Shown here one piece after another: positions 6,765 through 64,000 of a stretch of 64,000 bases of DNA. Below the pieces are notes generated by a model that was not told where the DNA came from, did not search any database, and was given only the letters and a program-made list of their open reading frames with translations. Each line of letters starts with the position of its first letter. Position 1 is the stretch's first letter. Source of the DNA: Paenibacillus odorifer (GTDB lineage Bacteria > Bacillota > Bacilli > Paenibacillales > Paenibacillaceae); the NCBI RefSeq assembly GCF_000758725.1, contig NZ_CP009428.1:2604001-2668000 (forward strand). Direction: 5' to 3'. A program made the position numbers and the translations under genes.

Positions 6765-6783
6765 TAATTAGCTTTATCGCGTA

Positions 6784-6823
6784 TGCGGAAATCCGGGGCA
6801 AGCTCTGGATTTCCGCATTTTTT
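6784..6823 (+). terminator. Terminator between convergent CotH and SgrR-like genes
   Basis: An 11-bp stem TGCGGAAATCC / GGATTTCCGCA (6784-6794 with 6807-6817) is followed by seven T on the plus strand. It lies between convergent genes and could serve both. Confidence 0.85.
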
Positions 6824-6835
6824 AATTCAAGCAGA

Positions 6836-8530: not shown

Positions 8531-8642
8531 TGTTTTGGTTCCTTTCGGAAAATAGGAAATTATAAATAAATTCTTTCTCTTTTTTTTCTTATTTTATCAC
8601 GTAAAATAAGGATGAGAAAGTAAGAAAATGGGGGTAATTACC

Positions 8643-47340: not shown

Positions 47341-48249
47341 TTAAGAAGCAATTAATAGGTGACTCCTGAATTCATCGGGAGTCATCTTTTTTAATGTCCA
47401 TTGATATCGCTCGGAGTTATAGTAGGCGATATAGTCATCAACCTTTGTTCGTAATTCCAAGAGAGTCATACATGTCTTGTACTCCAAATCATCCTTCAGA
47501 TGGCCAAAAAAGCTCTCCATGGCGGCGTTATCCCAGCAGTTCCCTTTCCGTGACATGGACTGTGTAAACCCAGCTTCGCGTACGAGAAGGCGGAATCTAG
47601 GGTGAGTATAGTGCATTCCTTGATCCGAATGCAAAAGGGCTTCTGGATGAATATTGCCATCCAGTCGTTCAAGTAGTTTCTCCAGTGTTCGTTCTACAAT
47701 TGGCATAGCCAATGAAGAAGAGAGGTAGTGAGCTAAAATTTGTCTCGTAGCCCCGTCTTTCACCACGGATAAATAAGCACATTGTCCATTACCATAATGC
47801 ATATAGGTAATATCCGTCAGCAGCACTTTCTCAGGCTCTCCTTGGTCAAACTGGCGCTTGAGTAGGTTGGGACATGTTTGGTGCTCTTGTGTGGCTTTTG
47901 CCATCTTGCGATAGGGATTTGCTTGCCGGATCGTAGCAACAAGCTTATATTTTCGCATTAATCTTCGAATCTTTTTATGATTCATGATGATACCATTCTC
48001 CCGTTCCAGCCACATCTTCACGACCAATGCTCCAGCTTTACCATTCAAAGCGTCATAGTGTTTCTTGATAAGGAAAGCGTCTCGTTCGTCTGCCTTCTCT
48101 CGCAACTGTCTTGCTTCCTCAGCGACTTGCCAACGGTAATATCCGCTTAAGCTCACACAAGCTAGCTTACACAAATAACGCGTCATTCGCTGCAGACCGT
48201 GCTTACGTATCGTTTGGTTAATAATTTCGTAGCGCTCGGAGGGGGTCAA
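47341..48249 (-). CDS. IS3-family transposase, OrfB (DDE integrase)
   Basis: This frame of about 302 residues carries the rve integrase core. The three acidic residues are visible: VLLTDITYMHY, HSDQGMHYTH and NAAMESFFGHLK, with the spacing of IS3 transposases. An HTH_21 region lies at the N terminus. The frame has no proper start of its own with a ribosome site; the TTG at 48249 only begins the open frame. It is expected to be made as an OrfAB fusion by -1 frameshifting. Confidence 0.94.
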   Translation of the reverse strand: MTPSERYEIINQTIRKHGLQRMTRYLCKLACVSLSGYYRWQVAEEARQLREKADERDAFLIKKHYDALNGKAGALVVKMWLERENGIIMNHKKIRRLMRKYKLVATIRQANPYRKMAKATQEHQTCPNLLKRQFDQGEPEKVLLTDITYMHYGNGQCAYLSVVKDGATRQILAHYLSSSLAMPIVERTLEKLLERLDGNIHPEALLHSDQGMHYTHPRFRLLVREAGFTQSMSRKGNCWDNAAMESFFGHLKDDLEYKTCMTLLELRTKVDDYIAYYNSERYQWTLKKMTPDEFRSHLLIAS

Positions 48250-48692
48250 CGTTTCCTCTGCATCTTCTGCTTTTCGAGCGCCTCCAGCTTTTTTAAGAAG
48301 TCGTTCTCCATCTCCAGAAGCTTGATTCGTGCTTCTGCACGTTTTAACTTTTCCTCGGTAGAAAGTTCCCCTGTCGGTCGTCTGCCCGGGGATCCTTTTC
48401 CTCGTTGTTCCTCTAGTAGTCCAGCCTCTCCCAGAGCATTATATGTATTACGCCAACGGGTTAGGCAATGCTTAGGCTTCTTGCGACCGATAATATCTAG
48501 GTTAAATCCTGCGCTAAGGAAGATCTCCATTGGGGCTTGGCCTTCCTTATAGGCCTTAACCGCAGCCAACTTAAACGTTGGTGAATAGGTAATACTCTTT
48601 TCCGTCACGTTCTCTACATTTGGATTGTTCTCTAGTTGTTTGATCTCATTTTCGTTGAATATCCTTGAGCTTCCTCTTGTTTTGTTATTCAT
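48246..48692 (-). CDS. IS3-family transposase, OrfA
   Basis: This protein of 148 residues has a helix-turn-helix of the HTH_28/HTH_29 type (SPTFKLAAVKAYKEGQAPMEI ... CLTRWRNTYNALGEAGL) and a C-terminal leucine-zipper (EARIKLLEMENDFLKKLEAL). The ATG at 48692 follows CGGAGG. The slippery heptamer A AAA AAG at 48288-48294 (minus strand) is in the right frame for a -1 shift into OrfB, and no stop intervenes. Confidence 0.9.
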   Translation of the reverse strand: MNNKTRGSSRIFNENEIKQLENNPNVENVTEKSITYSPTFKLAAVKAYKEGQAPMEIFLSAGFNLDIIGRKKPKHCLTRWRNTYNALGEAGLLEEQRGKGSPGRRPTGELSTEEKLKRAEARIKLLEMENDFLKKLEALEKQKMQRKR

Positions 48693-48897
48693 GAAGGCTT
48701 CCTCCGTTATTTCGATATTTCGATTAAAACACAAAATGACCCGTAAGAGGGTCACTTTTTTCAAAGTTTCCATCTTACGGGTCACAGTTCATAAGCAGGT
48801 TGTAGTCTTTTTTTAATCGCGTGTTAGTAAAGTCGTTTTTATATATTTATAGACACTGTTATAATTGGAATATGCTTATGTATTGGAGGCGATTCGC

Positions 48898-50886: not shown

Positions 50887-51975
50887 CTATATTTGGCATA
50901 AATTATCGATGTTTTTTTCAATGGAATGATAAAACAGGTCTTCCGCATGAAGGACATAGGCCATGTATTCTTCCATCTGGTCAGTAAGTGTAAATTCATT
51001 CATGATATACTGCCTGGTCATAACATTCCTTAAAAGTTCCCATTGTTCGATGCTTTGCCGAGCACAATGAATGACATCGCTGAGAGCATTAGGATTTGCT
51101 AAGGAATTCAGCAGCAACAGCAATACTTTTTTTCGATCTGAATGACGGGTGAGCGTCGTCCGGGTTAAAGAGTAAAGGTCATGGGGGCGGTTTGAAATCT
51201 TTGTATTGAGGATGAAACGTCCACTTGCAAACAGATTGTTCAGTTCCTGGATGGCTGATCGTCCGATATATTCCAGGCGTCCTTCGGTACAAGAGGGCGG
51301 CTTATAATAATTCGATAGTGCGGTTCTTAAAATGAGCGAGGCTCGGGCTGGCAATTCAGCAAGCTCATCTTGATTAGGATGCACTGTGAAACAGGAAAAC
51401 TGCCGATTGTAGGCATCCATAAACGAAGTTTTGGCATCTTGACCGATATTTTTGTTATGCGGATAAGGCTTGAAATACTCTTTGTTGTAATTTATATAAT
51501 TGTCCAAGAAATAAAAATCAGTTGCCGTCTGCCCTAGGATCAAAAATATATGCCCATCCACAATATGATCTGTTTCCAGAGCCGGGTTTAATTCAAATGT
51601 TCTATAAAAGGGGACTCGTTTCATTAACGTATTGACAAATACGACTTCGTTATTTGCTAACAGTGTCTCTATCGTCTGGATGGCTGCCTCTGCATTGTTG
51701 CTAAAAGTATGTTTATTAGCGACTGTTATATAATCCTCGGGATCTTTGATCTCGTTCAAGCTTAATTCAAACTGGTCACTGTCAGTATGGGTAACTAATT
51801 TCAGATTAAAATCATCTAAAAACATCTTGTACAATACGCTAGAGTCATTGACATACCTCTTTAGCATGAAAAAAATATTACGGGTATAGCAGTTTCCCAG
51901 TGACTGTACCTCTGCAATAGGCTCCCCTGCAGAATTATAGTAATATTCCATTTCTAACGTCTGCAACGTCTGCAT
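50887..51975 (-). CDS. BtrH-N-terminal-like cysteine peptidase/acyltransferase-type protein
   Basis: This protein of 362 residues has a weak likeness to the butirosin protein BtrH N-terminal domain, a papain-like fold. The likely nucleophile is C29 in SLGNCYTRN, with His in DGHIFLILG and a polar residue in FLDNY. The C-terminal half is helical and rich in Arg/Leu. GGAGGGAC precedes the ATG. It is the second gene of a two-gene minus-strand operon, 33 bases behind its paralogue, and diverges from the biosynthetic operon. BtrH-type enzymes move acyl groups from carrier proteins to acceptors. Confidence 0.55.
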   Translation of the reverse strand: MQTLQTLEMEYYYNSAGEPIAEVQSLGNCYTRNIFFMLKRYVNDSSVLYKMFLDDFNLKLVTHTDSDQFELSLNEIKDPEDYITVANKHTFSNNAEAAIQTIETLLANNEVVFVNTLMKRVPFYRTFELNPALETDHIVDGHIFLILGQTATDFYFLDNYINYNKEYFKPYPHNKNIGQDAKTSFMDAYNRQFSCFTVHPNQDELAELPARASLILRTALSNYYKPPSCTEGRLEYIGRSAIQELNNLFASGRFILNTKISNRPHDLYSLTRTTLTRHSDRKKVLLLLLNSLANPNALSDVIHCARQSIEQWELLRNVMTRQYIMNEFTLTDQMEEYMAYVLHAEDLFYHSIEKNIDNLCQI

Positions 51976-52008: not shown

Positions 52009-52995
52009 TCATCCCTTGGAGCCGAGCGCGCTTATTATTTCGCCCAATAATTTGGTTTCGTCTGTTTGTATGGTCAACAGAGAATGTTTGAGTGCGTCTA
52101 GCACCTTGGGGTCCATGGACAGATTATACCGAAGCACCATATTTCTGTTCAGAAGAGAGCGTTCTTCAAGCTCAGTACAACGCTCAATCCATCGGTCGCT
52201 TTGCAGCAGGAGTTTTATTTGTTGGAGATATTTAAGTCTTAAAACCATAAGCTTCTTATGCTCCCACAGCAAATGATAGGCTCTAATGTCAAGCTCAGGG
52301 TCATCTTCTTTAGGATGCTCCATTTGATAAATGAGGTGTTGGTACACACTTTGTCCATAGATGCTGGTAGTGGTATGGTTAATAAAATCGAATGAGCGCT
52401 TGGAGGATAGATATCGCTGCAAGCTGTCGACAATCTGTTCGACGTTTAAGTCAAATTCTGCATCGATTTTGCTAAGCAAAGTTACACGCGTAATAAAATT
52501 TTCTTCCCCGGACAGATAGTCAAAGGCGGATTCCAGTTCGGAAAAGGTGCATTGAGCGGTCATAAATTTACCGCCCGTAATATTGTCCCGAATGCAGACT
52601 GTTTGGCGATCAAGATCGTAGCCGTAAATTAATGTCTCGTGAAAACGGTGCTCTTGGCCGAACTCCTGATATGCAGATATAAAGTACCGGTCGAGATGGC
52701 ACCATACATAGCAATCGCCGTTGATAGAGTCTACTACAAAATCCGTAAAGGAAGACCACTTGGAAATGATGGTTCTAGGCAATATGAACTTATTGAGAAA
52801 TGGGCAATAATCAACAAGAAGCTCATGATTGTCAAAAAAGTAAGTTTCCCAATCCGTTACATATCTCAGCTGAATGAAGTTGGAATAAACCCAGGGCCAT
52901 ATGCGGTTATCCGAAGAAATAATAGAAAACAAAGTCCCATAGGCGTTGGAAGTATTTATTAGTGGATCGGAAACGGGTAAAGTAATTTTACTCAA
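52009..52995 (-). CDS. BtrH-like protein lacking the candidate catalytic cysteine
   Basis: This protein of 328 residues shares the domain layout of the neighbour. At the matching N-terminal place it has TSNAYG (A18 instead of Cys), while HETLIYGYD and IRDNITG match the His and Asn positions. It might be a non-catalytic partner or use another chemistry. The start is TTG with GGAGGTG seven bases upstream. The promoter region, shared with the ETF operon, carries AT-rich dyads. Confidence 0.5.
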   Translation of the reverse strand: MSKITLPVSDPLINTSNAYGTLFSIISSDNRIWPWVYSNFIQLRYVTDWETYFFDNHELLVDYCPFLNKFILPRTIISKWSSFTDFVVDSINGDCYVWCHLDRYFISAYQEFGQEHRFHETLIYGYDLDRQTVCIRDNITGGKFMTAQCTFSELESAFDYLSGEENFITRVTLLSKIDAEFDLNVEQIVDSLQRYLSSKRSFDFINHTTTSIYGQSVYQHLIYQMEHPKEDDPELDIRAYHLLWEHKKLMVLRLKYLQQIKLLLQSDRWIERCTELEERSLLNRNMVLRYNLSMDPKVLDALKHSLLTIQTDETKLLGEIISALGSKG

Positions 52996-53207: not shown

Positions 53208-54020
53208 TTGCGAATAGTGGTTTGTTTAAAGTTTATTGCACACGTGAACAAAGGCGATGTGCGTGGCATTGCTGATGGCCGTAAGATCTCGGCCTCACCG
53301 CCACCGAAGGCAACCTTTGAGCTAAACTATCCGGACCGGCAAGCCATCCATGTGGCATTGGAGCTGAAGAATAGCTGTAATGCTAATGTAACTCTTATTT
53401 CCATGGCCCCTCCCGGTTGTAAAACGGCTCTGCAGGAGTTTATGGGTTATGGAATCGATGAGGCAGTCCTGCTCAGCGACGCTTCTTTTGCCGGTTCGGA
53501 TACATTGGCGACATCGCTGGTACTGGCTCGTGCTGTTGAGAAGCTTGGTGGATGTGATCTGGTTCTGACCGGCAGCCATTCAACCGACAGTGATACCGGT
53601 CAGGTAGGTCCGGGAATCGGCGAGTATCTAGATATCCCCCACGCGATAAATGTAACACGGTTTGAGGATATTTCGACCGATGAGGTATTGTTCCACCGCC
53701 AGCATGACGAAGGGGTAACAACCAGACAGTCTTGCCGGCTTCCGGCAGTATTGAGTATTGGTGGAATGACAGCCGTCTCTGAGTTGAAACCGCTAACAAT
53801 TGCTGCCAAATTGCATGCCAGAACCAAGGATATTCTGGTATGGTCCTGTCATGACCTTGGCCTTGACCCACAGACGGTTGGTTTGGCAGGCTCGGCTACT
53901 GAAGTAGTTTCAGTGTACGAACAGCACTCCGAAAGAAAGGGGATTTTGCTAGAAAGCGATGAATATCTACGGGTATTGGAGCCGATAATCAGCAAAATCA
54001 GCGAGGTTAGAAATGGATGA
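53208..54020 (+). CDS. etfB: Electron transfer flavoprotein beta subunit
   Basis: This protein of 270 residues opens RIVVCLKFIAHV and contains ELNYPDRQAIHVALELK, GSDTLATSLVLA, TGSHSTDSDTGQVGPGIGEYL and RLPAVLSIGG. These are all landmarks of EtfB/FixA with the nucleotide-binding pocket. It pairs with the alpha subunit encoded next (ATGA overlap). The start is TTG behind GGGAGGAG. As the first gene of the plus-strand operon it marks the operon's redox side. No acyl-CoA dehydrogenase partner is present in the window. Confidence 0.93.
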   Translation: MRIVVCLKFIAHVNKGDVRGIADGRKISASPPPKATFELNYPDRQAIHVALELKNSCNANVTLISMAPPGCKTALQEFMGYGIDEAVLLSDASFAGSDTLATSLVLARAVEKLGGCDLVLTGSHSTDSDTGQVGPGIGEYLDIPHAINVTRFEDISTDEVLFHRQHDEGVTTRQSCRLPAVLSIGGMTAVSELKPLTIAAKLHARTKDILVWSCHDLGLDPQTVGLAGSATEVVSVYEQHSERKGILLESDEYLRVLEPIISKISEVRNG

Positions 54021-55219
54021 TTAGGATTGATCAGGAACAATGCACATATTGCCTCCTGTGTTTAAAACGCTGTCCCGCCGCTGCAATCAAGGATGAGGAT
54101 GAGGGCTTGCGTATCGACGTTGCGGCATGTACTTATTGCTCAGTCTGCACGTCTTGCTGTCCTAACCAAGCCATTATAATGAAAGACAGGGCACAGGAGA
54201 CCAGACAACCGTACCCTGAGCATGAGGGTATTTGCCTTGTTGTGGAACATGCTGAAGGCGCTCTCTCCTCATATTTTCCGGAACTGGTTACCGCAGCAAA
54301 ACAGCTGCAGGCTATGAGAGCCCAGCGCATTTACGCTTTGGTGGTCGGAGAGCGTATAGAAGACCTAGCCCAGCGTCTGCTTCAGTGGGGAGTAGATGAG
54401 GTGTGGATGGTGAACAAACCGGGAATACAGCGTTACGCCGAAGATATTCATTATAATTTGATTTCTGCGGTGCTCCGGGATCAAAGACCGTCTGTCGTAC
54501 TAGGTATGGCTACCGCATGGGGGAGGTCTATTTTCCCCAGAGTCGCAGTTCGCCTGCGGACGGGGCTATGCGCCGATTGCATCGATTTGAAGATGGGACC
54601 GGATCACGGGGATTTTATTATCACCAGACCGACGCAAATGGGCGAGCAATTCGCTGAGATAAAAATACCGGCAAGACGGCCGCAAATGGCAACTGTAAAA
54701 ACCAATTTTTATTCCGCTGCTGAGACCGCACACGTCGCGCAGGGCAAGATTGTTGATCTAAGCTCCCTGTATTCTTGCTCTTCCTCAGTCCTGCAGTTTA
54801 TGGGAGTAATTGAAGAAGCCGCGGGCAAGGAGAACATCGAGACTACAGAAATTATTGTTGCTGCCGGGAGAGGCATTCAAAACGCAGACAATCTTCGTTT
54901 AATCTATGCGCTCGCCGATGCGCTTGGGGGGAAAGTAGCGGTTACCAGACCGCTTGTAGAATGTGGATGGATGGATAGTATGCATCAAGTCGGACTGACA
55001 GGTAAAATGGTCAAGCCCAAACTGTACATCGCCTGCGGAGTGTCTGGGGCAGTGCAGCATAAGGTTGGGATGCATCATTCGGAGACGATAATTGCAATAA
55101 ATACGGATCGCAATGCACCTATCTTTGATTACTCCACATATGGGATCGTAGGCGATCTTTTTACAGTCATACCTGAAATATTGTCGGCATTGAACACAGT
55201 ACAGGAGGTTGGGCGATGA
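54017..55219 (+). CDS. etfA: Ferredoxin - electron transfer flavoprotein alpha fusion
   Basis: This protein of 400 residues has an N-terminal 2[4Fe-4S] ferredoxin (CTYCLLCLKRCP and CTYCSVCTSCCP). The EtfA domain follows, with the FAD site intact: AAGRGIQNADN, TRPLVECGW, HQVGLTGK, CGVSGAVQH and STYGIVGDL. Such Fd-EtfA fusions occur in clostridial caffeyl-CoA reductase and other bifurcating or low-potential ETF systems. Overlaps of ATGA on both sides show tight coupling. The electron acceptor is unknown. Confidence 0.94.
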   Translation: MIRIDQEQCTYCLLCLKRCPAAAIKDEDEGLRIDVAACTYCSVCTSCCPNQAIIMKDRAQETRQPYPEHEGICLVVEHAEGALSSYFPELVTAAKQLQAMRAQRIYALVVGERIEDLAQRLLQWGVDEVWMVNKPGIQRYAEDIHYNLISAVLRDQRPSVVLGMATAWGRSIFPRVAVRLRTGLCADCIDLKMGPDHGDFIITRPTQMGEQFAEIKIPARRPQMATVKTNFYSAAETAHVAQGKIVDLSSLYSCSSSVLQFMGVIEEAAGKENIETTEIIVAAGRGIQNADNLRLIYALADALGGKVAVTRPLVECGWMDSMHQVGLTGKMVKPKLYIACGVSGAVQHKVGMHHSETIIAINTDRNAPIFDYSTYGIVGDLFTVIPEILSALNTVQEVGR

Positions 55220-55911
55220 TTGAGAAGGAGCTATTAAGACAACAAACGCTGCATACGATTGGCGTCATGCTCGATGAGCACTTGCTTCAGAAGGAGGATA
55301 TGTTCAGGTTTCAAAGTGATGTCCACGACACATATTCTCCGGAATACATCCGGAGCGAGATGGAGAATTGGTACAGAACATTAGGAATCGAATATATCAT
55401 CCAGCGAAAATTTTCACTTCGGATGCCGCAGTTTACTAGAGAAGAATTAGAAGAAGCGGACCGAAGAAACGAGATCATTTTATGTGTTCCCCAAGGCGTC
55501 AGTCGCAAGCAATTAGGCTGCTTGTTTAATATCCGCAATTGGGCGCTGGAGAGTGGACTGGTCGCAGCAACTCCGGAAATTGAGGATTTCTGGTTCACCG
55601 TTCCGCGGACAACCGAACCGGATATGCTGGATCGGACGGCTGTGGAAATACAGCGTACATACAAGAAAACCGGAAAATTGGGAATGAGTCTGGAGCGGTA
55701 TCTGGTATTTGTCGCCCGCATGAGGCATCTGACAGGACAAACACCGGATATAAGGACAAAGATGTGGATTACCAACGGCAAATATGAAGGAAAGGCGATG
55801 CTTGTGGTTGGTTTCGACTCGGCTGGCGAGTTTACAGCACATGGCTGGATGCCGAATTTCCACTCGCCTATGGTGGGCGGACGTTATACCTGGATACCTG
55901 ACCATATATAA
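55216..55911 (+). CDS. Unrecognised protein of the ETF operon
   Basis: This protein of 231 residues is not one I recognise. It is rich in charged and aromatic residues, without a membrane helix, signal peptide, or obvious cofactor motif. The N-terminal half is helical. The C-terminal part has MRHLTGQTPDIRTKMWITNGKYEGKAMLVVGFD as the best-marked segment (shown here as MRHLTGQTPD, KMWITNGKYEGKAMLVVGFD). It starts at ATG, overlapping the EtfA stop. Its place suggests a partner or substrate-handling protein for the ETF. Confidence 0.55.
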   Translation: MIEKELLRQQTLHTIGVMLDEHLLQKEDMFRFQSDVHDTYSPEYIRSEMENWYRTLGIEYIIQRKFSLRMPQFTREELEEADRRNEIILCVPQGVSRKQLGCLFNIRNWALESGLVAATPEIEDFWFTVPRTTEPDMLDRTAVEIQRTYKKTGKLGMSLERYLVFVARMRHLTGQTPDIRTKMWITNGKYEGKAMLVVGFDSAGEFTAHGWMPNFHSPMVGGRYTWIPDHI

Positions 55912-55937
55912 ACAGTAAGGAGACGGTTATTTCGGCT

Positions 55938-56795
55938 ATGTACAATAAGTTCACTGAATCGGGGCCTCAGCCTAGTGTACACTTCACCGCTGCTCGCAAG
56001 GCGGAACCGGGTCCTAATGAATTGTTCATTACCAACCGTTTTACTTTAACGGGAACGGTAAAGGACCCATCCTGCTTGCAGCTTTTTCATGGGGCATGCC
56101 ATTTACCAGGGCATTATCCTTACTCCAGTGTCGGAGTAGTGACTAAAGCGGGGCTTGGAGCAGAGCATCGCGTAGGCCAAGCTCTTGTGTTTTCTCCTCA
56201 TTATACAAAGGATGTATGTGTCCCTCTGCACAGTGGGGTGGATGGTCAGATCTTTATTTCCAACGACTTAGACCCTGTGACAGCTGCGTTTGTTCCTATG
56301 TTTTGTGTGGCACTAAATGTGTGTGAAGAGCTGGCAGATGAAGGCATTAAAACGGTGGAACTGTGGGGAATGGGACTGCTAGGAAAGCTTTTATTAAGGT
56401 TGCTTAAGCAGGATGAAGATTTGAGCTTCAGTGTTGAAAAGAAGGAGGCCAAGGATGAGATTTGGGCCGGGTTAAACAGCGGTGTGTGGGACTGCGAGGA
56501 GAGAGCCATTGTTGCACTTGATTCGGACCTGCTCTCGCAGGTTCAACGGCATTCGGCTTTAAAAAACCATCCACCAGACCAGCACATACAATTTATTGAT
56601 CTGACAAGACCTGGAATACTTAAGGAATCCATAACGCATGACCGTATTCAGGAAATCTCTCGCAGAATTGGGAAGCAAGAGCTTGAAGTAACCAGCCTAA
56701 TTGCCCAACATATTCATGCGGAACATATGGAGCAATTTATCAGGCAAGCGGCGGAAGGCTTTTTTGAAGGGAAAACTGTAGTCTATGACTGGTAG
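55938..56795 (+). CDS. Medium-chain dehydrogenase/reductase-like protein, diverged
   Basis: This protein of 285 residues has a GroES-like fold (PGHYPYSSVGVVTKAG, GQALVFSPHYTKDVCVPL) and a short Rossmann part (GMGLLGKLLLRLL). It thus belongs to the zinc-containing alcohol dehydrogenase/BchC-like superfamily. The usual structural and catalytic zinc ligands are not obvious, and the protein is shorter than normal (about 330-350). It may reduce a carbonyl, or have lost zinc catalysis. It lies in the operon 26 bases after the previous gene. Confidence 0.6.
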   Translation: MYNKFTESGPQPSVHFTAARKAEPGPNELFITNRFTLTGTVKDPSCLQLFHGACHLPGHYPYSSVGVVTKAGLGAEHRVGQALVFSPHYTKDVCVPLHSGVDGQIFISNDLDPVTAAFVPMFCVALNVCEELADEGIKTVELWGMGLLGKLLLRLLKQDEDLSFSVEKKEAKDEIWAGLNSGVWDCEERAIVALDSDLLSQVQRHSALKNHPPDQHIQFIDLTRPGILKESITHDRIQEISRRIGKQELEVTSLIAQHIHAEHMEQFIRQAAEGFFEGKTVVYDW

Positions 56796-56807
56796 AGGAG
56801 GTTCGTC

Positions 56808-57956
56808 ATGCAGTTGACACAAGGTGTTATGGATGTACCCGCACTCGATATTGCATTTTCTGAGCAGGAGCGGCGTATCATTATGGAGCGAATTGATGAT
56901 TGTCTGTCGAGAGGAGCGTTGAGTCAGGGTAGGTATGTACAGGAGCTGGAGGAACGTTTTGCCCGGTATGTAGGAGTTACTCATGCCATTGCGGTTAATT
57001 CGGGTACAAGTGCGATTGAAGCGGTAATGAGAGTGCTCGAAGTAAAGGGGCAGGAAGTGCTGGTTCCGGCAAATACGTTTATTGCCACGGCTTCCAGTGT
57101 CCTGTTTGCCGGAGGGCATGTTCGCCTTGTTGATATTGATCCCCGTACATTTTCGGTGTCGCTGGCTGAAATAAAGAAGCAGGCCACGAGTCGTACCCGA
57201 GGGGTTATTATCGTACATATTGGCGGAATTGTTACACCGGAGATTGAAGAAATCAGGCAATGGTGCGATGAGCAGGGGCTCTGGTTATTTGAAGATGCCG
57301 CTCATGCACATGGCAGCAGGATGGCCGGAAAAGGTGCGGGAGCTTTCGGAATTGCCGGAAGTTATTCCTTTTTTGCCACGAAAATCATTACCTCGGGGGA
57401 AGGAGGGATCATTGTCACAAACGATCATTCAATGGCTGAGAAGCTAAGAATGTTCCGCAATCATGGCAAGCCCCAACCTTGGGAGACTTACCACACCTCG
57501 CTTGGCAACAATTATCGAATGAGTGATATCACAGCAACGATAGCGCTTACCCAGTTTGAGCGGCTCGACGCGATCATTGAACAACGGGAAGCGATCGCCA
57601 ACCGTTATACTTCCTTCTTTACGAAAAATCTTCCTGATTTCGAGATTGTGATGCCGCAGGACAGATGCAGTTGGTATAAGTACATTGTTATAGTGCCTTT
57701 AGACGTTGACAGTTCCGATTTGAAGGACAGACTCAAGGAGAAAGGCGTTTCGCTCCAAGGGGAGGTATATGCAACGCCGCTTCATAGGCAGCCGATCGCT
57801 GCTTCCCTACAGTTCAGTGGGGAATATCCGCTAGCGGATGATTATTGTCGGCGTCATATCTGCTTGCCGATTTATCCCAATTTGACTGATCAGCAGATCG
57901 ATTATGTTTTGGCTGTATTCTTAAGTGTGGTCGCAGAGTTAAGGGGGCAGCAATGA
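56808..57956 (+). CDS. DegT/DnrJ/EryC1/StrS-family PLP aminotransferase
   Basis: This protein of 382 residues carries the family motifs: VNSGTSAIEAVMRVL, VPANTFIATASSVL, FEDAAHAHGS and YSFFATKIITSGEGG. The pyridoxal lysine is K192 in ATK. The late segment YRMSDITATIALTQF completes the set. The family aminates keto sugars for antibiotics and surface glycans, sometimes dehydrates them. It fits an amino-sugar step together with the SDR and glycosyltransferase downstream. The stop overlaps the ABC ATPase start (ATGA). Confidence 0.93.
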   Translation: MQLTQGVMDVPALDIAFSEQERRIIMERIDDCLSRGALSQGRYVQELEERFARYVGVTHAIAVNSGTSAIEAVMRVLEVKGQEVLVPANTFIATASSVLFAGGHVRLVDIDPRTFSVSLAEIKKQATSRTRGVIIVHIGGIVTPEIEEIRQWCDEQGLWLFEDAAHAHGSRMAGKGAGAFGIAGSYSFFATKIITSGEGGIIVTNDHSMAEKLRMFRNHGKPQPWETYHTSLGNNYRMSDITATIALTQFERLDAIIEQREAIANRYTSFFTKNLPDFEIVMPQDRCSWYKYIVIVPLDVDSSDLKDRLKEKGVSLQGEVYATPLHRQPIAASLQFSGEYPLADDYCRRHICLPIYPNLTDQQIDYVLAVFLSVVAELRGQQ

Positions 57957-58960
57957 ACGAGGGCATTATTATTGATAATCTGAGAAAGGTCTATCGCGTC
58001 CCTGTAAGAGAACATGGGTTAAAGCATGCGTTCAAAAGTCTGATCAAAATGGAATACAACGAAGTTGAGGCGGTAAAAGGTATCGACCTCAGGGTTGAGC
58101 CGGGAGAAATTGTCGGGTTCATCGGACCTAACGGCGCGGGAAAGACAACCACGCTGAAGATGCTCTCCGGTATCCTGTATCCGACATCAGGCAACATTTC
58201 CGTCTATGGCTTCAAACCGTGGGAACGCCAACATAAGTTTCTGCGCAACATCAGTATGGTAATGGGGAACAAATCGACGTTAACCTGGGATATTACGGTC
58301 GAGGACTCTTTCTTTGTGATGAAGGAAATATACGGAGTCTCTGATGCTGATTTTAAACAAAGACTCAACGAGCTAAAAGAACTACTGGATATAGGGCATC
58401 TGCTTAAGAATCAGGCACGGAATCTCTCTTTGGGAGAACGCTCCAAGTGTGAATTAACAGCAGCGTTGTTACATCAGCCACGTGTATTGTTTTTGGATGA
58501 GCCTACTTTGGGGCTGGATGTTAGCATGCAGCTGCGGCTTCGCAGTTTTATCAAGGAGTATAACCAAAAACATGAGACAACCATCCTGCTTACCAGTCAC
58601 TATATGGAGGATATTTCTTCCCTTTGTAAACGGGTTGTGCTGATCAATCAAGGCAAGCTGTTATACGACGGATCTCTGGAGCAGCTGAGCGGTAAAATAG
58701 CTCCCTACCGCATTCTCAAAGTCAGTTTTATGGATGAAGACGTAACGGGCACAATTGAAGAGCTAAAGGAGAAGTTTACTGACAGCTTGCAGGTCATGGA
58801 GCTTGCGGAAAGCTACGTATTGTTTAAGATTCAGAAGGAAGCTGTACCTGAGATTGTTTCAGAAATCTTTAATAGCTATTGCATTGGAAATGTAACAATC
58901 AATGATGCTCCAATCGATTCGGTAATTGATGAAGTGTATCGAGAGGGGAGGCTCCTTTGA
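57953..58960 (+). CDS. ABC transporter ATPase, ABC-2 exporter type (COG4586-like)
   Basis: This protein of 335 residues has Walker A GPNGAGKTT, signature LSLGERSK, and Walker B VLFLDEPTLGLD followed by the H-loop TSHYMED. An extended N terminus (VREHGLKHAFKSLIKMEYNEVEAVKG) marks the uncharacterised COG4586 group. That group works with two ABC-2 permeases, both of which follow. It powers export of the cluster's product or a surface molecule. Coupled to the previous gene by ATGA and to the next by TTGA. Confidence 0.94.
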   Translation: MNEGIIIDNLRKVYRVPVREHGLKHAFKSLIKMEYNEVEAVKGIDLRVEPGEIVGFIGPNGAGKTTTLKMLSGILYPTSGNISVYGFKPWERQHKFLRNISMVMGNKSTLTWDITVEDSFFVMKEIYGVSDADFKQRLNELKELLDIGHLLKNQARNLSLGERSKCELTAALLHQPRVLFLDEPTLGLDVSMQLRLRSFIKEYNQKHETTILLTSHYMEDISSLCKRVVLINQGKLLYDGSLEQLSGKIAPYRILKVSFMDEDVTGTIEELKEKFTDSLQVMELAESYVLFKIQKEAVPEIVSEIFNSYCIGNVTINDAPIDSVIDEVYREGRLL

Positions 58961-59748
58961 ATTTTCGCGGAGGCTTTGCGCTGATACGTAGGACTATGTT
59001 CGGGTTTATGGCTGAGAAAGGTTTCTTCTGGACATTGACGCTTGGTTGGATGATGGGACCTATCATCTATATGTTTGTTTGGACCGTTGCTGCGGGAGAT
59101 GGAAGCATAACCGGGTTCACTCAGCAGGATTTTGTGAGGTATTATATTCTGTTAATTCTTGTGAACCAGCTGACCTACCCTACATCACACTGGACGGTCG
59201 GCGATCAAATCTATGGCGGCAAGATGTCGATTGTATTATTGAGGCCGATATCGCCTTTTTACGATGTGGTTGCATCAGATTTGGCTGTCAAAATCGTCTG
59301 TATGCCTTTTGTTATATTTGTTGCCGGTGTGGCTGCCATTTTTTTGAACTTCAGACTGGCTATATCCGGTCTGGACTTGCTGGTGGCCGTTTATCTTCTT
59401 CTCATGGCTCAAATAATCAGATTTATGCTGGCCTATACACTTTCCCTGTTTGCATTTTTCACCAATAAAATCAAGTCCTTGCTTTCTATTAATGACACCC
59501 TGGTATTTTTGCTGGCCGGACAGGTAGCGCCTTCGTCGTTGCTTCCGGGATTTATGCAGGATATCTCGGATTATTTGCCTTTTCAATATATGATCAGCTT
59601 TCCGATAGAGTTTTCCCTTGGAAAGTTGGATCATTCACAGCTTGTTTTTGGCATAATTGTTCAATTCATTTGGGCGGTCGTTATCATATTATGTAACCGT
59701 TTAGTGTGGAAAAAAGGGATTCGTGCATACATGGCCGTGGGAGGGTAG
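58957..59748 (+). CDS. ABC-2 type permease (COG4587/COG3694-like), first
   Basis: This protein of 263 residues has six transmembrane helices. The extracellular loop and the mid-part QIYGGKMSIVLLRPISPFYDVVASDLA (landmarks IYGGKMSIVLLRP and DVVASDL) are typical of the exporter permeases with COG4586 ATPases. The start is TTG at 58957, with GGGGAGG six bases upstream, overlapping the ATPase stop. It forms the membrane half with the next gene. Confidence 0.9.
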   Translation: MNFRGGFALIRRTMFGFMAEKGFFWTLTLGWMMGPIIYMFVWTVAAGDGSITGFTQQDFVRYYILLILVNQLTYPTSHWTVGDQIYGGKMSIVLLRPISPFYDVVASDLAVKIVCMPFVIFVAGVAAIFLNFRLAISGLDLLVAVYLLLMAQIIRFMLAYTLSLFAFFTNKIKSLLSINDTLVFLLAGQVAPSSLLPGFMQDISDYLPFQYMISFPIEFSLGKLDHSQLVFGIIVQFIWAVVIILCNRLVWKKGIRAYMAVGG

Positions 59749-59753
59749 GGAAC

Positions 59754-60548
59754 ATGCTGAGATATATGCGTTTGCTGAGATTGTTTTTCTCTACAGCGCT
59801 TCTAAAGGAAGCGTCATTCCGCGGTGACTTTCTAATCAAAATTTTGTATACCGCAATTAATTTAACCGGGACGATTGGCGGGATCGCGATCCTCTTTTCC
59901 AACACAAATTCGCTTAACAGTTGGACTTTTGCGGATACGCTGGCATTATCGGGCGTGTACTATTTTATTTTGGCAATGAAAAATCTATTTGTTGGTCCAA
60001 GCCTTGGCTCATTAGCCGGGATGGAAGGGGAGCTATGGACTGGAGGATTTGATTTAACGCTGCTCAAACCGATTGAGACCCAGTTTTATGTGAGCACGAG
60101 ATACTGGTCTCCGCTTAATCTGTTTGATGTTATGGTGGGAGTAGCGGTGATGGTGCTGGGCGTTTCTCAAATGCAAGAAGCGATAGGAATATCCACTTGT
60201 CTGATGTTTGTATGGGCCATTTGCAATGCTTTACTGCTGTTGTACTCAATACTGCTGTTATTAAGCTCTTTGGCGTTTTGGTATGCCGGAAGTCCGATGT
60301 TGAGTATATTCGACAGTATCATGCAGATGGGTAGATTTCCGGTCAATGTATATCAGAAACCAATCCAATTGGCGCTTACCTGGATCGTTCCTGTCGCCTT
60401 TATCGTTTCCATTCCTGCAGAAGCATTAGTGGGCAGGGTAAGCCTGTCCTATTTATTCGGAGGCAGCTTGCTAGCTGCGGTTTTGCTAATGTTAGCCAGT
60501 GCGTTTTTTAAACGAGCAGTGAAAAAATATGCAAGTGCTTCTAGCTGA
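59754..60548 (+). CDS. ABC-2 type permease (COG3694-like), second
   Basis: This protein of 264 residues has six transmembrane helices with the loop LTLLKPIETQFYVSTRYW, the counterpart of the LLRPIS motif of its partner. The ATG at 59754 is chosen because GGGAGGGTAGGG sits just upstream; in-frame codons before it overlap the previous gene. With the ATPase and first permease it makes a heterodimeric exporter. Confidence 0.9.
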   Translation: MLRYMRLLRLFFSTALLKEASFRGDFLIKILYTAINLTGTIGGIAILFSNTNSLNSWTFADTLALSGVYYFILAMKNLFVGPSLGSLAGMEGELWTGGFDLTLLKPIETQFYVSTRYWSPLNLFDVMVGVAVMVLGVSQMQEAIGISTCLMFVWAICNALLLLYSILLLLSSLAFWYAGSPMLSIFDSIMQMGRFPVNVYQKPIQLALTWIVPVAFIVSIPAEALVGRVSLSYLFGGSLLAAVLLMLASAFFKRAVKKYASASS

Positions 60549-60560
60549 GGAGGATTCTAA

Positions 60561-62042
60561 GTGAACACTTCTTCCATATTGGATTTGATCTATTTCAATT
60601 GCTCGAATAATCCAGGGCTTACGGCCATTGATTATGAAGGATCAACGATCACTTATGAAGAGCTACGGCAGGAACTGGAGCACAGTAGTGAGAAGCTGGA
60701 TCTCGCGGGGATCCGGCCCGGGCACAGAGTTGCCTTAGCCGTTGCAGACAAATCTGCTTTTATCATGCTGTGGCTTGCATGCTGGCATACGGGAGCCGTT
60801 CCGATCCCATTTGAACCTGTGAAGAACTTACCGGAACTGGAGAGAATGCACTCGTCAAGCCATTGTCAGTATTTAATTTGCGATCTAATTGATTCGGAGG
60901 GCAGCAGTCAGCTTGAGCTCGTACTCAGAGTACCGATGTTTATTTTTAGGACTGCAACGCTTTTTTTACAGGCAGATAAGCAGTCTGATGAAGATATTGC
61001 TTTGAATTTTTATACCTCAGGAACGACTGGACCGCCTAAATGCGTACAGTTTAGCCATCGGGCCATCTACAATAATGTAATGGCCATCTGTAGAGGGCTT
61101 GAAATTACTGCAAACGACAAGCTGTTCACACCGATTTCGCCGTGGCTGCCCGCGACGCTAACCACTGTAGTCCTACCGGCCCTCTGTGCCGGTGCTACAT
61201 TAATCATGTCGAAGGGAACAATGCCTGCTAGAATTTGCGAGCAGATCAATCGCAAAGAGGTAACGATTCTTTTTGCGGTTCCCTATATGTATGCCTTGCT
61301 TAATGAGTCAGTCGTGTCATCGTCAAGTGTAGCTTGGGATAAAGTGAGACTGTGCATCAGCTGCTCTGCTCATCTGGACGCAGCGACTTTTAAGGACTTT
61401 TATAAGCTGTCGGGCAAGTCTATCCGTTCATTGTTCTGTTCATCCGAAGGTGGGGCAATTGCCTATAATCCTTCAAATGAGCAAGAACTGATCAGAGATT
61501 CGGTGGGACAGCCACATCTGGGAGTTTCTATTCGGCTGCTTGACCCGGAGGGGCACGAGGTTGCTCATGGAGAGGAAGGAGAGATATGGGTCAGCGGCGC
61601 TCATATATCGTGCGGGTATTACGGGCAGCCCGAGTTGCAGGCAGAGGTCTTTCAACAGGGTTGGGTACGTACGGGTGATCTGGGAAGGTTGGATGAGGCT
61701 GGGTATCTGTATTTGTCGGGACGGCTTTCTGATAACATCAATGTCGGCGGACATTTGGTAAATCCGGCAGAGATTGAACAAGTCCTGCTGCTCCATAACG
61801 GCATTAAAGAAGCACTTGTATATGGTGTTTCCGATAAATACTATGGCAGCAAGCTGATTGCGGAGATCGTGCCGCTGGATGCCCAGGTATCAGCCGATGA
61901 TATTATCAGATTCTGTTCAGCGAGACTTGCGGCATATAAGGTGCCGAGAGTAATCAAGTGGACGGATAACATTCCCAAGGGTCGCTATGGGAAGAAGCTG
62001 AGAAATCAGAATCAAGCAGCCAGTCACATCCTGACGCCATGA
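60561..62042 (+). CDS. AMP-dependent acyl/amino acid ligase (adenylation enzyme)
   Basis: This protein of 493 residues has the ANL fold: phosphate loop FYTSGTTGPPK, A5-like SSEGGAIAYN, A7 GWVRTGDLG, A8 GRLSDNINVGGHLVNPAEIE, and the C-terminal lysine in IPKGRYGKKLR. The acid-specific residues do not allow a substrate call. It lacks a carrier domain and may load a stand-alone carrier or form a CoA ester. The start is GTG behind GAGGAGG. In this operon it could activate the acyl group that the ETF system modifies. Confidence 0.92.
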   Translation: MNTSSILDLIYFNCSNNPGLTAIDYEGSTITYEELRQELEHSSEKLDLAGIRPGHRVALAVADKSAFIMLWLACWHTGAVPIPFEPVKNLPELERMHSSSHCQYLICDLIDSEGSSQLELVLRVPMFIFRTATLFLQADKQSDEDIALNFYTSGTTGPPKCVQFSHRAIYNNVMAICRGLEITANDKLFTPISPWLPATLTTVVLPALCAGATLIMSKGTMPARICEQINRKEVTILFAVPYMYALLNESVVSSSSVAWDKVRLCISCSAHLDAATFKDFYKLSGKSIRSLFCSSEGGAIAYNPSNEQELIRDSVGQPHLGVSIRLLDPEGHEVAHGEEGEIWVSGAHISCGYYGQPELQAEVFQQGWVRTGDLGRLDEAGYLYLSGRLSDNINVGGHLVNPAEIEQVLLLHNGIKEALVYGVSDKYYGSKLIAEIVPLDAQVSADDIIRFCSARLAAYKVPRVIKWTDNIPKGRYGKKLRNQNQAASHILTP

Positions 62043-62965
62043 GGTTTCTTGTGACAGGTTGCAGCGGTTTTATCGGGAGCAGGTTAACAAGCAGTTTACT
62101 GGAACAGGGACATGCTGTCAGAGGGCTTGTATTGCCGAAGGAAAAAGGCGTTGGCGAAACACTTGCAGAATTGGGTATGGAACTGTGGGTAGGCGACGTT
62201 CTGAACCCTGAAACGATGGATGGCATAGGGGAGGATATTGATGTCGTCTATCATCTTGCCGGCAAACATTCTGGTTCTGTGTCCCGGATGAGGCAGCTGT
62301 ATGTAGAGGGGACGCGGAATCTGCTGGACCAACTTTTGCGCAGCGGAACGTATGGCAAGTTCATTGTGGCAAGTAATGGGGCTGTATATGGAAGCGACAA
62401 CGTTTGTGTGGCCGATGAATCTGCACTGTGCCATCCCGTTCATCCATTTGGAAGAATTACACTCGAAATGGAGCGGCTGGTCCAGCAATACTGCACCCAT
62501 GCGAAATTTTCTTATATCATTCTCAGGATCGCTGAAGTGTACGGCCCGCTTGAGCATAATTATATCCGGCAATTAATGCGCTGCACTCAGATGCTGGGGA
62601 ACGGGCGCAGTTATTCATCTAAAGTGCATATTGATGATGTTATTTCAATGATGCAGTTGGCCTGGAGTAATCTTGCTGTTCAAGAGATTTATAACGTGAG
62701 TGATGATCTTCCTCTAACACAGGAGGAATTGATAAAAGAGGTTCGGAAATATGCTCAACTGTCTGAAATACAATGGATTTCTCCTGAGGCTGTCACTGAT
62801 CGTATCAGACTAAGTATACATGGTTTACGCGCCCTTTCCGTACGTATGGGAAACGAAAAGATAAAAAAGAATGCCGATGTACGGCTGGCATACCCTACTT
62901 ACGCCCATGCGATTCCTTATTTAATCGAAGAAATGTCCAATAGAAGCGAGGTGAATAGTTTGTGA
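62039..62965 (+). CDS. Extended-SDR (NAD-dependent epimerase-like) protein without catalytic Tyr and Lys
   Basis: This protein of 308 residues has an NAD-binding motif TGCSGFIG and the later VYHLAG, NGAVYG and AEVYGPLEHNYI. At the active site, where homologues have PYGxSK, it reads HPFGRIT: F137 replaces Tyr and T141 replaces Lys. Thus the usual Tyr-x-x-x-Lys pair is absent. It might be a binding protein or have an altered reaction. ATGA overlap with the ligase and GTGA overlap with the glycosyltransferase show coupling. Confidence 0.88.
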   Translation: MRFLVTGCSGFIGSRLTSSLLEQGHAVRGLVLPKEKGVGETLAELGMELWVGDVLNPETMDGIGEDIDVVYHLAGKHSGSVSRMRQLYVEGTRNLLDQLLRSGTYGKFIVASNGAVYGSDNVCVADESALCHPVHPFGRITLEMERLVQQYCTHAKFSYIILRIAEVYGPLEHNYIRQLMRCTQMLGNGRSYSSKVHIDDVISMMQLAWSNLAVQEIYNVSDDLPLTQEELIKEVRKYAQLSEIQWISPEAVTDRIRLSIHGLRALSVRMGNEKIKKNADVRLAYPTYAHAIPYLIEEMSNRSEVNSL

Positions 62966-64000
62966 GTCCGCCAAGAATTATGCTTCTTCCAAGCCCCCCT
63001 AGCTCCGGTTCTGTAGGATCAGTGAGCAAAACGCTGGGCATTGCCAAGGTTCTGCAAAGCCAAGGTTGCACGGTCAGCTTTGTGATTGGCGGCAAGCTTG
63101 CTGACTTTGTCCGAGCCAACGGCTTTCAGGTTTATGACTATCCGATTCCGCTTCCTTCAGGGAATTCCGGAGATGTTCGCAGTGCTGCCGATTATGTAGA
63201 GTGGACAGGGATGGCAGAATCGGGCTTTATTCGTCAAGCGGTTGAGGCTGAACTGAAGGCGATACAGGCTTTTAAACCCAACGCCATATTTGCCGAGTCT
63301 CGTCCGAGTGCTTCCATTTCAGCTGCCGTGGCCCAGATTCCCGCTTTGATGATTGCGAGCTGGCCAAGCCATCCAGCCTTCCCGGCCAACCTACAGTATC
63401 CGGGATCTGCCAAAGCTATCGCCGCTTTTAATGAGGTGTTGGCGGATTATTCACTGGATTCTGTTTCCAATCTGGCTGAATTATTATTTTCAAGAGCAAC
63501 AATTAAAATGGCACCGACACTACCGGAACTGGAGCCGGAGCTGGCTGGGTTGAAGGAGTGCGATTTCGCCGGTTACATTCTGGATTTGGAGGCAAGACAA
63601 TCTTCAAATCTGCAGTGGCATCCGGACTGGCAGGGCAAGCCGCTAATTTTTATTTATTTAAGCGTTAGTGCCATTCCCCCTTTAATTTATATTGAGCTGG
63701 TCAAAGAGATCTTTGACAAGCAACCCTACCGTGTTGCCTGTTTATGCGGATTTCATTATGAGCTTAAGGTGCTTCCTGACCATACCGACAATATTCAATT
63801 CCATTGGTTTATCCCGGCTGCTGAAATTATGCCGGAAGCAGCTCTGGTAATCTTTCATGGCGGACAAGATACTATGCTTACGACAATGCTTCATGGACTT
63901 CCGAGCATAACCGTTCCCGGTCAACATTTTGAACGGGACTATAATTGTACGCAGCTCCAAAATCTTGGTCTCACTTATAAGCTACCCGTTCAAGCATTCA
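62962..64000 (+). CDS. GT1-family (UGT/MGT-like) glycosyltransferase, partial at window end
   Basis: The gene opens at GTG 62962 (GAGGTG eight bases upstream) and runs past 64000, giving at least 346 residues. The N-terminal domain has SSGSVGSVSKTLGIAKVLQ and IFAESRPSASI, and the C-terminal domain has FHGGQDTMLTTMLHGLPSITVPG, the UDP-sugar-binding signature of macrolide-type transferases (landmarks shown in parts). It would glycosylate a small molecule with a nucleotide sugar in the cytoplasm. It overlaps the SDR stop. Confidence 0.9.
   Translation, partial: MSPPRIMLLPSPPSSGSVGSVSKTLGIAKVLQSQGCTVSFVIGGKLADFVRANGFQVYDYPIPLPSGNSGDVRSAADYVEWTGMAESGFIRQAVEAELKAIQAFKPNAIFAESRPSASISAAVAQIPALMIASWPSHPAFPANLQYPGSAKAIAAFNEVLADYSLDSVSNLAELLFSRATIKMAPTLPELEPELAGLKECDFAGYILDLEARQSSNLQWHPDWQGKPLIFIYLSVSAIPPLIYIELVKEIFDKQPYRVACLCGFHYELKVLPDHTDNIQFHWFIPAAEIMPEAALVIFHGGQDTMLTTMLHGLPSITVPGQHFERDYNCTQLQNLGLTYKLPVQAF

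Follow-up and report, generated by a model that had tools for sequence, protein, structure and literature searches.

A sporadic Paenibacillus odorifer gene cluster with a putative oxygen-independent route to a glycosylated acyl/aryl-seryl product

UvrA homologues without the UvrB-binding region serve self-resistance in clusters for DNA-binding compounds, according to the available part of the literature on DrrC, Ecm16, MtrX and SgcB2 (PMC10413001), and the U32 oxidases described so far, as covered by the available parts of two further sources, act on RNA bases and ubiquinone and carry the motif CX6CX15CX3C (PMC11574389, PMC6599085). We have analysed a gene cluster of Paenibacillus odorifer in which a short UvrA-like protein and a U32 protein are encoded together with an electron-transfer flavoprotein (ETF), a DAO-family flavoprotein and genes for acyl activation, peptide synthesis, glycosylation and export. 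Its front half lies in the window, the whole stretch of 64,000 nucleotides that was analysed (C1:2604001-2668000 of a single-contig genome of 6.81 Mb), and the rest in a downstream stretch, L003, whose positions plus 62000 give window-equivalent positions. The cluster represents a real and, it appears, dedicated biosynthetic type, undescribed in the literature searched: as the original prediction had it, no described pathway with such a gene set was found there, and the searches made returned no homologous cluster whose product is known. Judged by protein families, the product would be a glycosylated, carbamoylated acyl/aryl-seryl compound that acts on DNA and is made by an O2-independent route.

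The likeness to DrrC, Ecm16, MtrX and SgcB2 consists in a UvrA homologue that lacks the region for binding UvrB and is encoded within a biosynthetic cluster; however, the clusters surveyed in the available part of that source belong to Actinobacteria, whereas those considered here come from Paenibacillus and mostly from Clostridia (PMC10413001). The present cluster differs further in its core of ETF, DAO and U32 proteins, in its sugar and carbamoyltransferase genes, and in holding no long non-ribosomal peptide synthetase (NRPS) or polyketide synthase.

Extent of the cluster and recurrence of its core

Eleven tightly coupled plus-strand open reading frames (ORFs) run in the ORF listing from 53208 to past 64000, with successive junctions of -4, -4, 26, 12, -4, -4, -43, 12, -4 and -4 bases. 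An internal ATG at 59754, noted by eye, turns the -43 junction into +5, and with this start the coupling by overlaps or gaps of 5-26 bases that had been claimed is confirmed. The operon had also been expected to continue beyond the window, and the same-strand run indeed extends to about window-equivalent 81870; a 283-base gap lies 3' of the U32 gene, and all later junctions measure -29 to +41 bases. Including two divergent upstream genes, which the range of the original prediction did not cover, the cluster totals 26 genes over ~31 kb, and the genes in the next 14 kb appear by eye to be unrelated. Biosynthetic genes, not housekeeping genes alone, occupy the downstream part up to the Sfp-type phosphopantetheinyl transferase (PPTase), and with its carrier proteins, NRPS and PPTase the reading as a biosynthesis and export operon holds. 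Of the downstream partners envisaged earlier, carrier proteins and an NRPS are thus present, whereas in the 26 proteins Pfam recognised neither a ketosynthase nor an acyl-CoA dehydrogenase, so the suggested polyene or reduced acyl moiety is not supported.

A pattern scan of species genomes retrieved the cluster in four more genomes: Acetivibrio mesophilus, an uncultured Clostridia metagenome-assembled genome (MAG), Lacrimispora algidixylanolytica and an uncultured-bacterium MAG. The core comprises UnkA, UnkB, the ETF, the DAO protein, an AMP-forming ligase, a short-chain dehydrogenase/reductase (SDR), the 580-residue protein Unk580 and at least one carrier protein, all found in the five clusters; the carrier protein of the uncultured-bacterium MAG rests on a short tblastn match, and the Acetivibrio ETF, just outside the first locus, was found by a whole-genome search. 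The U32 protein also occurs in all five, its divergent Lacrimispora copy (26% identical to the Acetivibrio U32, PF01136 above cutoff) lying just beyond the first-read stretch. Other components vary: the GT1 glycosyltransferase and the UvrA-like protein occur in four of the five clusters each, the DegT aminotransferase with the 285-residue protein in three, as does the cluster-type radical SAM protein, and the carbamoyltransferase in this cluster and, in two copies, in the uncultured-bacterium MAG. The stretches of the two MAGs end at contig ends or at the limits of the sequence taken, and absences from them are no proof.

The codes of the adenylation (A) domains, read by eye, appeared Cys-like in Acetivibrio mesophilus and Gly-like in the Clostridia MAG. 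The Lacrimispora cluster (L044:7075-12215, minus strand) holds SbnA and SbnB above cutoff, which point to 2,3-diaminopropionate, plus a methionine adenosyltransferase; a protein 60% identical to the latter occurs in the Clostridia MAG stretch. The uncultured-bacterium MAG cluster encodes SIS, HAD and GT9 proteins suggesting heptose, and a LoaP antiterminator above cutoff heads the Acetivibrio cluster (L043:10925-11467, plus strand). A NusG-type relative of this LoaP (42%) adjoins the Lacrimispora cluster (L023:3614-4180, minus strand). Since the core is constant while the amino acid and the sugars vary, these clusters would fit the pattern of a natural-product family.

Within the genus, a UnkB search of 100 genomes (own included) gave a match in this genome only, and group searches likewise matched only the centre genome (1/391, 1/398, 1/392, 1/14, 1/25 and 1/150). 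Parts of the cluster also occur in other Paenibacillus strains: UnkA is 99% identical to a protein of FSL R5-0887, the U32 protein of FSL H7-0918 is 98% identical to the cluster U32, and Unk580 of CN-4 is 79% identical. Such a rare and scattered occurrence, mostly in Clostridia, is as expected for horizontally moved pathways.

Redox core, UnkA/UnkB family and UvrA-like protein

At E<=1e-15 a search of the genome found no EtfA but the one inside the cluster, so the ETF is likely dedicated to it and a role in fatty-acid oxidation is unlikely. The best solved match of this EtfA is CarE (6fah, E 2.8e-77), aligned over residues 2-394 including the ferredoxin domain, followed by LctC (7qh2, E 6.3e-74, residues 16-392). 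EtfB has 7koe, 4kpu, 6fah, 5ol2 and 7qh2 as its best solved relatives, which we take to be bifurcating ETFs, and carries DTGQVGP, fitting the motif DTxQVGP, presumably part of the site for flavin adenine dinucleotide. The closest solved relatives of both subunits point to the ferredoxin-domain/bifurcating sequence group, and by homology the ETF may be a low-potential one, as the original prediction named it. Unlike the CarE and LctC systems, however, the locus offers the ETF neither an acyl-CoA dehydrogenase nor a lactate dehydrogenase of GlcD type as partner, and the ETFs of the relatives have no ferredoxin domain; a low-potential dehydrogenase of the Bcd, CarC or LctD type was not found in any of the 26 proteins. 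In Acetivibrio mesophilus and the Clostridia MAG the ETF subunits are fused beta-alpha, whereas the other three clusters have them unfused.

Among solved structures the DAO flavoprotein matches 1y56 (E 5.3e-53), 4pab, a dimethylglycine dehydrogenase (DMGDH; E 2.4e-37), and 3ada (E 1.9e-29), which places it near sarcosine-oxidase and DMGDH chains. DMGDH hands electrons to ETF, and by its family the DAO protein would be the natural partner of the ETF within the cluster, the U32 protein and the radical SAM enzyme being alternatives. It differs from the family of DMGDH and sarcosine oxidase beta in that its gene is paired with UnkB.

UnkA and UnkB are 42% identical paralogues, and each of the four relatives has two copies of the family, one nearer UnkA and one nearer UnkB. 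A homologue search gave 145 sequences (120 of them listed), and A and B types are separable by eye in an alignment of 33 sequences, consistent with two branches of a new family without Pfam match. By a predicted model the C-terminal part of UnkA may be similar to C-type lectins and the formylglycine-generating enzyme. EtfA and UnkA are adjacent in three of the five clusters and DAO and UnkB in four, and the order in the uncultured-bacterium MAG is U32-EtfB-EtfA-UnkA, which fits the U32 protein as an alternative partner of the ETF. Since UnkA accompanies the ETF and UnkB the DAO protein, they are probably the respective partner or adaptor subunits.

The cluster U32 protein, of Fe-S type, matches PF01136 with 49.5 bits (cutoff 22.4) and 5d88 with E 2.3e-13; its NCBIfam matches to TrhP and UbiU are weak and far below cutoff. 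The cluster U32s conserve C180-x3-C184-x27-C212-x3-C216 and C340-x4-C345-x2-C348-x2-C351. In the best 120 of 213 homologues at E<=1e-30, of which the top 25 by score were taken as the cluster type, these eight cysteines are invariant except C212 (23/25 of the top, 85/95 of the others); C114 occurs in 23/25 and R151 in 24/25 of the cluster type, and each in 0/95 of the others listed. A large U32 subfamily (P0169-P0263; where named, MAGs such as Omnitrophica, Dehalococcoidales and Chloroflexi) has nearly the same eight cysteines. With TrhP, RlhA and UbiU/V the cluster protein shares PF01136 and a conserved cysteine quartet; however, those enzymes carry CX6CX15CX3C in the available parts of the sources, whereas the cluster protein has CX3CX27CX3C plus a C-terminal quartet and lies inside a biosynthetic cluster (PMC11574389, PMC6599085). 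Because the described oxidases carry this other motif and act on RNA bases or ubiquinone, a hydroxylating role is proposed by analogy only, without placing the protein among them.

Compared with three long-form UvrAs from Acetivibrio mesophilus, the Clostridia MAG and the uncultured-bacterium MAG, the four cluster UvrAs (843-876 residues) lack parts of one stretch, which we take to be the UvrB-binding domain; the gaps there span 23, 13 and 44 alignment columns. A long-form UvrA (942-970 residues as open frame) is encoded elsewhere in those three genomes and in the present one (970 residues). The cluster protein would protect the DNA of the producer, and its presence makes DNA the probable target of the product, by binding or by damage.

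Ligase, peptide synthetase, sugar genes and flanks

The family labels of the original prediction were corroborated by Pfam, including the amino-sugar-type and acyl-activation genes (DegT and AMP ligase), save for the 285-residue protein, whose 'MDR-like' label (medium-chain dehydrogenase/reductase) found no Pfam match; the gene at 55216, entered as unknown, had none either (Table 1). In an alignment with A domains, read by eye, the AMP ligase lacks the Asp to which an amino acid would bind with its alpha-amino group, and its best solved matches are a fatty-acyl-CoA synthase and a feruloyl-CoA synthetase. The A-domain code of the NRPS, likewise aligned and read by eye, is DVWHISLIDK, corresponding to Ser; code positions and meanings are as we presume them to be. 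An aryl-acid-type ligase with a carrier protein and a Ser-activating NRPS recalls what we take to be echinomycin-type starters. The DegT protein has 7b0d and perosamine synthetases as best solved matches, and the 285-residue protein, which adjoins it in three of the five clusters, is matched in other clusters (L007, L021) by two diverged relatives (27% and 23%). A DAHP synthase lies at the contig edge of the Clostridia MAG cluster and alone hints at a demand for shikimate, as would go with prephenate-dependent hydroxylation by a U32 oxidase. A Lachnospiraceae homologue of Unk580 (P0141) is fused to a PIG-L-type deacetylase.

Upstream, the divergent 328-residue gene is probably part of the cluster because its product is 27% identical to the 342-residue protein ~24 kb downstream. 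It belongs to the same family as L044:8171-9298 of the Lacrimispora cluster (E 1.8e-16) and possibly is BtrH-like, with a weak match to a BtrH_N-type profile (probability 13.6, E 0.002, 48 columns). Membership of the 362-residue gene is uncertain, its product being an unconvincing relative (15%) of the same 342-residue protein. At 47341-48785 on the minus strand, ~2 kb off the upstream end of the cluster, two adjoining ORFs appear by eye to be an IS3-type transposase pair.

Table 1. Genes of the cluster in order (coordinates refer to the window unless prefixed with L003)
Product	Coordinates	Strand	Family match or remark
362-residue protein	50887..51975	-	no Pfam/NCBIfam match
328-residue protein	52009..52995	-	no Pfam/NCBIfam match
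EtfB, ETF beta	53208..54020	+	PF01012; TTG start
EtfA with N-terminal ferredoxin domain	54017..55219	+	PF00037, PF01012, PF00766
UnkA, 231 residues	55216..55911	+	no Pfam match; paralogue of UnkB
285-residue dehydrogenase-like protein, label unconfirmed	55938..56795	+	no Pfam match
DegT/DnrJ/EryC1/StrS sugar aminotransferase	56808..57956	+	PF01041, 346 bits
ABC exporter ATPase	57953..58960	+	PF00005
ABC-2 membrane subunit	58957..59748	+	PF06182
ABC-2 membrane subunit, likely true start ATG 59754	59706..60548	+	PF06182
AMP-forming acyl/aryl ligase	60561..62042	+	PF00501, PF13193
Extended SDR, NAD epimerase type	62039..62965	+	PF01370
GT1-type glycosyltransferase (GT28_C/EryCIII-like), 398 residues	62962..64000, ends window-equivalent 64158 (L003:962-2158)	+	PF06722/PF04101
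U32 protein	L003:2162-3331	+	PF01136
GT4 glycosyltransferase	L003:3615-4808	+	
Unk580, 580 residues, NTF2-domain protein	L003:4810-6552	+	
UvrA-like protein	L003:6527-9130	+	
NodU/TobZ-type carbamoyltransferase	L003:9124-10776	+	
Carrier protein	L003:10795-11091	+	no Pfam match; sub-cutoff NCBIfam acyl-carrier match only
NRPS, condensation-adenylation-peptidyl carrier (C-A-PCP)	L003:11130-14471	+	PF00668, PF00501, PF00550
Carrier protein	L003:14472-14750	+	PF00550
342-residue protein	L003:14722-15750	+	
DAO flavoprotein	L003:15747-16919	+	
UnkB	L003:16941-17684	+	
Radical SAM enzyme	L003:17703-19127	+	
Sfp-type PPTase	L003:19169-19870	+	

Proposed route, rival explanations and significance

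The data themselves show the gene content, the return of the core in five genomes and an ETF that is the only one found in this genome; from protein families and gene neighbourhood we propose a route in five steps. The carboxylic acid loaded by the AMP ligase would have no alpha-amino group and would plausibly be aromatic; its acceptor would be a stand-alone carrier protein that the PPTase of the cluster has primed. Oxidation of the carrier-bound or a later intermediate would then do without O2, the U32 protein with its eight cysteines acting as hydroxylase, the SDR as dehydrogenase or reductase, and the DAO flavoprotein as an amine dehydrogenase that passes electrons to the cluster's own ferredoxin-ETF. 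Serine would be added by the C-A-PCP NRPS. The DegT aminotransferase and the 285-residue protein may supply an amino sugar, the GT1 and GT4 enzymes would attach sugars and the NodU/TobZ-type enzyme would carbamoylate, with Unk580 and the 342-residue protein as candidates for acyl transfer or release. Finally, the ABC-2 transporter would export the product while the short UvrA-like protein guards the DNA of the producer. We give this reading, a sporadic cluster with a core for O2-free chemistry and the whole of this route, somewhat better than an even chance.

Several observations weigh against it. A second short UvrA-like protein (834 residues, 52% identical to the cluster copy) is encoded at 2511746 (L038, C1:2505000-2522000, positions 6753-9257, plus strand) beside a gene that appears MarR-like by eye, outside any obvious biosynthetic cluster, so the short form alone is no proof of self-resistance. 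Of the five cluster ETFs only the Paenibacillus one has the ferredoxin domain, the EtfB motif is degenerate in two relatives, and the match list of the DAO protein also contains oxidases of the sarcosine/glycine oxidase type, which use O2. The carrier protein at L003:10795-11091 has only the sub-cutoff match given in Table 1, the His position expected from a transglutaminase-like guess for Unk580 is Q or Y in many members by eye, and recent import finds little support in the GC content. Because the Paenibacillus host may have O2 available, the pathway need not be strictly anaerobic. Lastly, we infer the product, the substrates, the enzyme activities and the client of the ETF.

The strongest competitor accepts the O2-independent chemistry and takes the UvrA-like protein for a general repair paralogue, the product not being directed at DNA. 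The second short paralogue just mentioned fits this, as does the Lacrimispora cluster, where no UvrA-like gene was found in the stretch read; yet a UvrA-like protein, always without the UvrB-binding stretch, recurs in four of five otherwise variable clusters, and we consider this explanation unlikely, though one to be taken seriously. An acylated aminoglycoside like butirosin, a sugar core with an acyl side chain passed from a carrier protein by BtrH-type transferases, appears improbable. The carrier proteins, ligase, DegT and radical SAM enzyme of the Paenibacillus cluster would suit it, and the likeness to BtrH lies in four BtrH_N-type proteins, all below the Pfam cutoff, of the Clostridia MAG and Lacrimispora. 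However, the 26 Paenibacillus proteins include neither a PF14399 (BtrH) match, found below cutoff in the relatives, nor an aminocyclitol synthase (2-deoxy-scyllo-inosose synthase, dehydroquinate-type); the link of the Paenibacillus proteins to BtrH is weak, and a UvrA-like protein is ill-suited to an aminoglycoside that targets the ribosome.

It appears slightly more improbable still that the ETF serves fatty-acid or acyl-CoA oxidation or reduction, in the manner of Bcd or caffeyl-CoA reductase, and stands beside the cluster by chance. The closest relative of EtfA is indeed CarE, which belongs to caffeyl-CoA reductase as its ETF subunit, and the best NCBIfam match of EtfA, far below cutoff, is an acryloyl-CoA reductase ETF model. 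Against this, ETF, UnkA and DAO occur together in all five clusters, the genome has no other EtfA match, and an acyl-CoA dehydrogenase is missing both from the 26 proteins and from the scanned proteins of the relatives, where part of the ORFs was scanned (the rest of the Paenibacillus genome was not searched for one). Least probable of all, in our view, is a cell-surface glycan or capsule locus without a secreted small molecule: the DegT aminotransferase, SDR, two glycosyltransferases and ABC-2 exporter are common in glycan loci, and the heptose-type genes of the uncultured-bacterium MAG would agree with one, but the same run holds an NRPS module, carrier proteins, a PPTase, an AMP ligase, a carbamoyltransferase and a UvrA-like protein, and the relatives carry SbnA/SbnB and LoaP.

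Beyond the O2-free route itself, we advance more tentatively, and at clearly less than an even chance, the idea of a new cluster family for DNA-targeting glycosylated acyl/aryl-peptides, centred in anaerobic Clostridia and extending to Paenibacillus, in which a U32 Fe-S enzyme and an ETF-coupled DAO flavoprotein would replace oxygenases and oxidases, with UnkA and UnkB as dedicated partners on the ETF and the DAO side. The tailoring oxidations of antibiotic pathways known so far depend for the most part on O2; we know of no other U32 enzyme of secondary metabolism, and none was found in the literature searched. If the proposal is true, the cluster would provide the first such U32 enzyme, together with an ETF-driven amine dehydrogenase that would be among the first to be known from secondary metabolism, and anaerobic oxidation chemistry in antibiotic synthesis would become directly testable. 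The analysis also brings two protein families without Pfam match and a marker set for genome mining, UnkA and UnkB with a U32 protein bearing C114 and R151. With one complete copy in a probably cultivable host of a usually tractable genus, as against relatives that are harder to grow, Paenibacillus would be the practical entry point to this chemistry.

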